A stretch of DNA of 64,000 nt, from NCBI GenBank assembly GCA_029775855.1, contig JARVJZ010000002.1:1-64000 (forward strand), read 5' to 3'. The notes beneath the pieces were generated by a model. The model had not been told where the DNA came from. It worked only from the letters and a program-made list of their open reading frames with translations, and made no database searches. Of the stretch, positions 35,780 to 37,330 are shown piece by piece. Position numbers and translations under genes: made by a program. How positions within the stretch are numbered: the stretch's first letter is position 1; each line of letters starts with the position of its first letter. The DNA is from Nitrososphaeria archaeon. GTDB taxonomy: Archaea > Thermoproteota > Nitrososphaeria > Nitrososphaerales > JAAOZN01.

Positions 35780-35865
35780 TACAAAAGATGTGAGCGTAAA
35801 ACTTAAAGTCGAGCCCAAGTCATCTAAACATAGACCCGCGGTAGCTCAGCTTGGTAGAGCTTCCG

Positions 35866-35885
35866 ACCCTTCAGAAGGGGGAGAC
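35866..35885 (+). other. tRNA-Tyr intron 1, 20 nt, non-canonical position 30/31
   Basis: A bulge-helix-bulge fits exactly. The central 4-bp helix is CTTC 35860-35863 with GGAG 35880-35883 (one G-U). The bulges are CG|A (35864-35866) and AC|G (35884-35886), each cut after its second base. The inner stem is CCCTT 35867-35871 with AAGGG 35875-35879, closed by loop CAG. The outer helix is short (35858-35859 with 35887-35888). Confidence 0.85.
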
Positions 35886-35892
35886 GCTGTAG

Positions 35893-35936
35893 TGGCTTGC
35901 CTAGGCAAGCCTCACCAGCCTACCAAGCTCACAGAT
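35893..35936 (+). other. tRNA-Tyr intron 2, 44 nt, canonical position 37/38
   Basis: Central helix CTGT 35887-35890 with ACAG 35931-35934; bulges AG|T (35891-35893) and AT|A (35935-35937); outer helix is the anticodon stem TCCGG/CCGGA once intron 1 is gone. Inside the intron GGCTTGCC and GGCAAGCC (35894-35911) form a perfect inverted repeat, and GCTTG can instead pair with CAAGC at 35924-35928. Confidence 0.88.
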
Positions 35937-35946
35937 ACCGGAGTGT

Positions 35947-35974
35947 CGCAGGTTCAAATCCTGCCCGCGGGACC
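35947..35974 (+). repeat. attL: tRNA-Tyr 3' end copy
   Basis: A 28-nt segment covering the last variable-loop base, the T-arm and the 3' acceptor strand, plus CC. It is repeated at 37303-37330 with 27 of 28 bases identical (position 35970 G versus 37326 A). It is the left junction of the integrated element and completes the functional tRNA gene. Confidence 0.85.
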
Positions 35975-36219: not shown

Positions 36220-36248
36220 TTGGTTGATCTTAATTTATGATGTGTAAT

Positions 36249-36542
36249 ATGAAAAGTCTTGAAGAGATAAAAAGGATTTTAGCAGAGCATAAAGAAGAGT
36301 TAAGACAAAAATATAAGGTAAAAGAGATAGGGATCTTTGGTTCTTTTGTTAGAGGCGAGCACAGAAAAAAAAGCGATATTGACCTATTGGTCGAGTTTGA
36401 AGAATCCCCAAGCCTCTTTGAATTTATGGATTTGGAAGAATACTTGAGTAAAATGCTTGGGTTAAAGGTTGACCTTGTCTCAAAAGCTGCTTTAAAACCG
36501 AGAATCGGAGAATATATTTTAAAAGAAGTCGTTTATTTATGA
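36249..36542 (+). CDS. mntA: MntA-type nucleotidyltransferase antitoxin
   Basis: About 97 residues, a minimal nucleotidyltransferase. IGIFGSFVRGEHRKKSDIDL contains the G-S pair and the two catalytic Asp residues (about 43 and 45 from the chosen start). MntA antitoxins AMPylate a tyrosine of the HEPN toxin and so silence it. It overlaps hepT by 4 bases. The start was chosen by TATA spacing; ATG 36237 is also in frame. The gene lies inside the tRNA-Tyr element and is its best preserved cargo. Confidence 0.88.
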   Translation: MKSLEEIKRILAEHKEELRQKYKVKEIGIFGSFVRGEHRKKSDIDLLVEFEESPSLFEFMDLEEYLSKMLGLKVDLVSKAALKPRIGEYILKEVVYL

Positions 36543-36883
36543 GGAAAAGAGATTATAGGGATTACCTCAAAGACATAATTGATTCAATCAATGATATTGA
36601 GGATTTCACTAAAAACATGAATTTTGAAGAGTTTGCTAAAGATAAAAAGACGATAAACGCTGTGGTAAGGGGCATTGAAGTTATAGGAGAGGCAGCCAAA
36701 CACATACCTAGATCAATTAGAGACAAATATCCTTCCATCCCTTGGAAGAAGATGGCTGGAATGAGAGATAAAATGATTCATGAGTATTTTGGTGTTGATA
36801 TCAAAATCTTATGGAAGACGATAAAAAAGGATATTCCACAACTCAAGCCACTAATACAGAATGTTTTAGAAAGCCTTTGTTAA
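36539..36883 (+). CDS. hepT: HepT-type HEPN ribonuclease toxin (DUF86)
   Basis: A 114-residue HEPN protein. The catalytic motif R-x4-H-x-Y is intact in MRDKMIHEYF (Arg76, His81, Tyr83), and Tyr83 is the residue modified by MntA in studied pairs. VVRGIEVIGEAAKHIP is a second family hallmark. HepT cleaves RNA, often tRNA, when freed from MntA. The start overlaps mntA. With full-length motifs the pair should still work, which may explain why it survives in a decayed element. Confidence 0.88.
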   Translation: MRKRDYRDYLKDIIDSINDIEDFTKNMNFEEFAKDKKTINAVVRGIEVIGEAAKHIPRSIRDKYPSIPWKKMAGMRDKMIHEYFGVDIKILWKTIKKDIPQLKPLIQNVLESLC

Positions 36884-37255: not shown

Positions 37256-37302
37256 TATTTTCTATTATTCTCTTATCAAGGTTTTCAGCCTCGAAATTGT
37301 GC

Positions 37303-37330
37303 CGCAGGTTCAAATCCTGCCCGCGAGACC
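37303..37330 (+). repeat. attR: residual 3' end of the original tRNA-Tyr
   Basis: It matches 35947-35974 at 27 of 28 positions. It holds the T-arm and acceptor 3' strand but no 5' half, so it cannot make a tRNA. Eighteen bases on, the convergent MBL gene ends, giving the original chromosomal arrangement tRNA-Tyr then MBL gene. Confidence 0.85.

Follow-up and report, generated by a model that had tools for sequence, protein, structure and literature searches.

The window analysed here, meaning the whole stretch of 64,000 nt, carries on its plus strand a tRNA-Tyr(GUA) gene at positions 35835 to 35972 that is interrupted by two introns. The Rfam family RF00005 matches this interval with 44.8 bits and an intron-sized insertion. 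ARAGORN calls no tRNA at 35835-35972, and the gene is absent from the output of a whole-genome RF00005 scan. The host genome measures 1.51 Mb in 6 contigs, is 98% complete, and has Nitrososphaerales or Nitrososphaeria MAGs as its named relatives. This is the only tRNA-Tyr(GUA) found in the 1.5-Mb genome, and an intact second copy, raised in the original prediction as a possible counter-case, does not occur among the exon-pattern matches. We take it to be the one functional tRNA-Tyr gene of this relative of the Nitrososphaerales; its features are as follows.

35802-35808, plus strand: TATA-like CTTAAAG about 30 nt upstream (sequence and alignment; present in both congeneric genomes)
35835-35972, plus strand: tRNA-Tyr(GUA) gene, 138 nt unspliced (RF00005 match; spliced cloverleaf)
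35849-35857, plus strand: D-loop bases G15-G22 (GCTTGGTAG), suggested as the 5' strand of the lower stem P1 (covariation, folding)
35860-35863, plus strand: core of bulge-helix-bulge motif 1 (BHB-1), exon strand CTTC (pair list)
35866-35885, plus strand: intron 1, position 30/31, 20 nt (BHB, cloverleaf; compensatory change within the genus)
35880-35883, plus strand: BHB-1 core, intron strand GGAG (GGAG or a near variant in the listed 30/31 introns)
35886-35892, plus strand: exon 2, bases 31-37, GCTGTAG, with U35 at 35890 (spliced structure)
35887-35890, plus strand: BHB-2 core, exon strand CTGT (pair list)
35893-35936, plus strand: intron 2, position 37/38, 44 nt (BHB, cloverleaf; motif conserved in the phylum)
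35894-35911, plus strand: hairpin GGCTTGC-CTAG-GCAAGCC, proposed upper stem P2 (predicted fold)
35916-35919, plus strand: intron CAGC, proposed 3' guide, pairing with G31-G34 beside U35 (conservation, pairing)
35920-35928, plus strand: intron stretch CTACCAAGC, complementary to the D-loop, proposed 3' strand of P1 (covariation, folding)
35931-35934, plus strand: BHB-2 core, intron strand ACAG, of which ACA (35931-35933) doubles as the ACA box of the proposed guide

With exon 1 at 35835-35865, bases 31-37 at 35886-35892 and exon 3 at 35937-35972, removing the 20 nt that follow base 30 and the 44 nt that follow base 37 leaves a 74-nt cloverleaf in which all stems are paired, with a 5-bp anticodon stem (UCCGG/CCGGA) and the anticodon GUA. 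An intron finder that used sequence, BHB and cloverleaf rules only returned identical introns (30/31, 20 nt; 37/38, 44 nt), so the two predicted introns, and the placement of the first at 30/31, are borne out by the cloverleaf and by this blind search alike. The pair lists show a 4-bp core with 3-nt bulges on either side at both junctions. BHB-1 has the core CUUC/GGAG (one U.G pair), the bulges CG^A and AC^G, a 5-bp inner helix (CCCUU/AAGGG) and a 2-bp outer helix built with C32 and U33. BHB-2 has the core CUGU/ACAG and the bulges AG^U and AU^A; the anticodon stem serves as its outer helix and is available only once intron 1 has been removed. Bases 35887-35888 are indeed common to both motifs, as had been claimed. 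Two congeneric genomes retain both introns, with intron 1 measuring 19, 20 and 23 nt among these and the window, and within the genus the inner helix of intron 1 changes to CCCGC/GCGGG in a compensatory manner while the BHB bases are unchanged. This retention and the compensatory change place the introns beyond chance.

Downstream of the gene, a second tRNA-Tyr 3' end without a 5' part lies at window positions 37299-37330, with 30 of 32 bases identical to 35943-35974, and looks like an attachment site left behind by the insertion of an element at the tRNA gene. Between the gene and this copy lie 1.3 kb with a nucleotidyltransferase/HepT-like pair at 36237-36883, in which an MNT-type nucleotidyltransferase (PF01909) is followed by a HepT-like RNase (PF01934) with a 4-base overlap; it is likely a toxin-antitoxin module.

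With respect to the splicing machinery, the genome encodes two EndA homologues, a catalytic alpha and a structural beta subunit, with the alpha subunit showing the conserved Tyr, His and Lys region when aligned to A. pernix 3p1z and the beta subunit lacking the His. Alpha K39-P40-K41 aligns with K44-P45-R46, the Lys-Pro-Lys/Arg motif of the crenarchaea-specific loop in A. pernix (PMC12397907). Judged by these class-defining features, the endonuclease is of the (alpha-beta)2 type with the crenarchaea-specific loop, and the suggestion that a broad-specificity enzyme serves this gene is upheld by the K39-P40-K41 alpha subunit together with the second, structural subunit. Introns are present in about 18 of the roughly 35-40 recovered host tRNA genes, some with two, in a count of loci only that is incomplete and whose uncertain assignments are chiefly tRNA-Ser, tRNA-Leu and one labelled GCC. 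Endonuclease type and intron count agree with the known link between (alpha-beta)2-type enzymes and intron-rich tRNA sets (PMC4090602, PMC12397907). Other tRNA genes of the host with one or two introns (e.g., loci L023, L025, L030 and L081 of genome G000) were missed or misread by ARAGORN, and tRNA annotation in the clade is likely incomplete.

The 30/31 site had been presented as unusual, a view that does not survive comparison across the phylum. The same site is used in 44 of 95 Thermoproteota tRNA-Tyr genes, from 18 of 29 families, and not in the other 51, the count having been freed, by reading the list, of sequences ending in other exon bases that the automatic tally also took. These introns share a fixed 5' A and a fixed 3' GGAGAN or near variants, with a variable inner helix, and 30/31 is among the listed noncanonical tRNA intron positions (PMC4090602). 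Intron 1 is, on this comparison of sequences, an inherited and widespread intron. Inspection also shows an apparent third intron, in the D-loop or T-loop, in f7, f14 and one f13 genus; the loci with three apparent introns, those at 30/31 and 37/38 included, are L125-L127, L134, L135, L150 and L151.

The earlier reading is incomplete with respect to intron 2, for it overlooks both the conservation of this sequence across the phylum and its ability to pair with D-arm and anticodon region. The window intron contains CAGC-CUACCAAGC-UC-ACA, in the general form CAGC-CUACCAAGC-NN-ACA, with CAGC complementary to G31-G34, directly before U35, and CUACCAAGC complementary to D-loop G15-G22. In the window fold, U35 and A36 are the sole bases separating the guide helix from the upper stem region. 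The strict motif pattern occurs in the 37/38 intron in 117 of 398 phylum genomes, nearly all in a tRNA-Tyr context. In the home order nearly all fetched genes have the motif, including the set fetched by exon pattern only, with genome G033 as a partial exception. Across about 30 families, CAGC-N11-ACA and the D-loop complementarity are kept; the element is lacking in families f20 and f42 and in the DPANN genomes examined.

We observe that D-loop base 17 and its intron partner (Y17:R) change together. Among 95 genes there are 67 C-G, 27 U-A and one U.G pair with no mismatches, in a set whose phylum sequences were preselected by the motif pattern for ACA and RGC, not for the Y17:R match. The pair switches inside families f9, f13 and f50, and well-supported branches of the order protein tree force at least 3 switches, a number too small for significance at 0.05 in a sign test. 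Pairing in the 13-pair structure reaches 99.1% in a 44-row alignment and falls to 17-53% once the partner is slid by 1-3 bases, and double-change cells number 16 compared with 6.1 in shuffles (0 of 500 shuffles as high). Furthermore, families f58 and f74 have an altered D-arm, GCTCAATGG (GCUCAAUGG), and a matching intron, CCATTGAGC (CCAUUGAGC), in a complete re-pairing with ACA at 14 nt, and both were retrieved in a set assembled without using the intron. This re-pairing is, in our reading of the alignments, the strongest single evidence for selection on the D-arm:intron helix. A local intron hairpin GCC..GGC as the cause of conservation was rejected, with its 5' C fixed and the 3' partner tracking the D-loop. 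Guide CAGC and target GCUG are invariant in the motif set, and that helix is thus without covariation support. Taken together, these observations support the intron 2 structure well.

In its predicted ground state the precursor adopts the D-loop:intron conformer, at -66.4 kcal/mol and with a z score of -4.9 against shuffles, and the D-loop:intron helix has a probability above 0.5 in 54 of 65 precursors. The core and inner helix of BHB-1 can form alongside this dominant fold at a cost of about 1 kcal/mol (-65.4); for BHB-2 the penalty is about 16 kcal/mol before intron 1 removal and 13 after, all energies being thermodynamic predictions for 37 C only. Coexistence of BHB-1 with the fold and the much weaker BHB-2 fit ordered splicing, an earlier claim that is plausible in the form of intron 1 being cut before intron 2, to the extent that predicted 37 C energies can say.

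The layout of intron 2 resembles that of an H/ACA guide in several respects. The ACA box of archaeal H/ACA RNAs lies 14-16 nt from the target (PMC7991803), and in the window it lies 15 nt from the U35 junction; the same 14-16 nt spacing is seen in 95 of 96 genes, the exception being G033, with the phylum part of the set preselected by the search pattern. In most genes the ACA also starts the BHB core strand, which is compatible with splicing alone. In 30 of 95 genes from 14 families, the two are separated by 1-18 extra bases with the ACA still at 14-16 nt, and on this ground we rejected the idea that the ACA is there only on account of the BHB core; 11 of these 30 (families f2, f9, f16 and f17) come from the order set, and some of the others from the ACA-requiring pattern. 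A candidate 3' guide is present in CAGC, which is complementary to G31-G34 and does not vary among the 44 aligned rows, and a lower stem P1 with covariation is present, but formed with the target's own D-arm rather than inside the guide. The window shows no 5' guide, the target strand continuing straight into the upper stem, and no K-turn or K-loop in that stem, which is a simple hairpin. Rfam reports no H/ACA family in ten related loci. A box C/D guide was rejected on reading intron 2, which contains no C box RUGAUGA or D box CUGA. Nop10, an H/ACA protein, is found in the genome.

K-turn-like asymmetric loops are seen, by inspection, only in other families. Introns of families f41, f49, f60, f65 and f21 show a K-turn-like hairpin and then, beside the splice site, a guide-like CAGCCG or CGGCCGAG, with no D-arm pairing; in loci L257-L273 (these families and f51) this guide-like sequence can pair with the anticodon stem as far as G34. 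Introns of the L257-L273 type may represent a second guide architecture; in f41, f49, f60, f65 and f21 the guide alone is not significant, with shuffled introns equalling it in 11-40% of trials. Family f51 combines a K-turn-like hairpin intron with D-loop pairing and an AUA box, and in f20 and f42 neither the D-arm pairing element nor the K-turn-type layout is clearly seen.

We propose that intron 2 is a cis-acting, single-guide H/ACA-like element with which Cbf5 would convert U35 to pseudouridine (Psi35) before splicing, a reading to which we assign a probability of a little under 60%. CAGC would pair with G31-G34, CUACCAAGC and the D-loop would form the lower stem, and the hairpin would serve as the upper stem, with Cbf5 acting on U35 while intron 2 is still present. 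In the window the same ACA would afterwards form part of a strand of the intron 2 BHB, so that U35 would be modified while the guide is still in place. As far as the 37 C energies indicate, modification probably comes first, followed by the splicing of intron 1 and then of intron 2. Intron 2 would have been retained through evolution owing to its fold-back on its own tRNA. We see even odds for the wider statement that across much of Thermoproteota the tRNA-Tyr intron is a cis H/ACA-type guide that borrows its target's D-arm as lower stem, so that the anticodon would be modified before splicing, with the window ACA being both guide box and splice-motif strand.

The enzyme usually credited with Psi35 is aPus7/TruD. 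It is encoded in the host genome, and Psi35 may therefore come from TruD. TruD-lacking families f9, f13, f16, f17, f22 and f36 retain the element, and it is present in 14 of the 14 TruD-lacking order genomes with a recovered tRNA-Tyr (f9, f13, f16 and f17), with a diverged box in G033. Since nearly all genes of the home order have the motif, its relation to TruD absence is uninformative there. TruD/aPus7 is missing from the whole of order families f9 and f13 and from several others.

The same pairings could be read without any guide activity, as a folding or timing device that keeps the precursor in a single conformer, has intron 1 cut first and prevents premature use of the tRNA. Such a device would suit the energies, with the conserved conformer by far the most stable (-66.4 kcal/mol), BHB-1 nearly unaffected (-65.4) and BHB-2 16 kcal/mol weaker. 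We nevertheless hold it to be rather unlikely: the conformer is equally conserved in the 51 of 95 genes that have no 30/31 intron to put first, and timing leaves unexplained both an ACA at 14-16 nt outside the BHB and a pairing that ends exactly at U35. An intron structure that is recognized by stand-alone aPus7/TruD, in the way that the eukaryotic pre-tRNA-Tyr intron serves Pus7, strikes us as improbable. U33-G34-U35-A36-R37 matches the sequence that Pus7 modifies, the host genome encodes TruD, and intron-dependent Psi35 formation by Pus7 is known in eukaryotes (PMC11408192), yet the six TruD-lacking families keep the element and recognition by aPus7 has no need for an ACA at a fixed distance.

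There is very little to recommend a return to the original view alone, in which the interest lies in the 30/31 site and the mutually exclusive BHBs and intron 2 is otherwise neutral. The motifs and their common bases are real, but 30/31 introns are common in tRNA-Tyr, and neutrality is strongly disfavoured by CAGC-N11-ACA and D-loop complementarity persisting in some 30 families. Just as hard to credit is an excised intron 2 acting in trans on other tRNA-Tyr molecules, be it as an antisense RNA or as a guide. Circularisation of tRNA introns is possible in archaea, and a title in the reference list of the same review (PMC11408192) presents the tRNA-Trp intron guide as intron-encoded yet trans-acting; against this, the precursor is predicted to fold in cis in its ground state, and in a mature tRNA the D-arm and anticodon stem would first need to be opened.

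The retention of a tRNA-Tyr intron by archaea and eukaryotes has long called for an explanation. A conserved pairing that brings U35 to a position like that at an H/ACA active site would supply a selective reason in archaea, parallel to the tRNA-Trp C/D guide and to eukaryotic intron-dependent Psi35 and, if true, would link modification order to splicing order. Atypical H/ACA-like sRNAs of Pyrobaculum, reportedly described by Bernick in 2012, are said to have a single 3' guide and reduced canonical features, to keep the K-turn and often to be without ACA. The single 3' guide and the reduced features are common to these and the window element, which differs in having an ACA and no K-turn; the introns of f41, f49, f60, f65 and f21 resemble the Pyrobaculum type more. 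We know of no described H/ACA RNA in which the 5' strand of P1 is the target's own D-arm.

The box C/D guide in the archaeal pre-tRNA-Trp intron (PMC6313347), which directs Cm34 and Um39, likewise makes a tRNA intron a guide for its own anticodon region, whereas here we see an H/ACA-like layout that would be directed at U35 of tRNA-Tyr, with a D-arm lower stem and no C/D boxes seen. In Sulfolobus solfataricus a separate, trans-acting H/ACA sRNA guides Psi35 of pre-tRNA-Tyr (Muller 2009, as related in PMC7991803); the target base is the same and the enzyme probably the same, but the guide is a separate RNA there and would sit in the target's own intron here. tRNA-Trp is the sole archaeal case named in the consulted passages of a 2024 review of intron-dependent tRNA modification (PMC11408192), and our literature search, with most subscription papers outside its coverage, found no description of a tRNA-Tyr intron as guide. 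The original prediction named Thermoproteales and some other TACK archaea as the main groups with several introns in one tRNA. The comparison with such multi-intron genes (PMC4090602) stands, with BHB introns at 30/31 and 37/38 and an (alpha-beta)2 endonuclease with crenarchaea-specific loop in both, but the host is a Nitrososphaerales relative, not a member of Thermoproteales, and its intron 2 has a conserved tRNA-pairing element. This element is what is new here; the two-intron state itself is common for the gene in the phylum.
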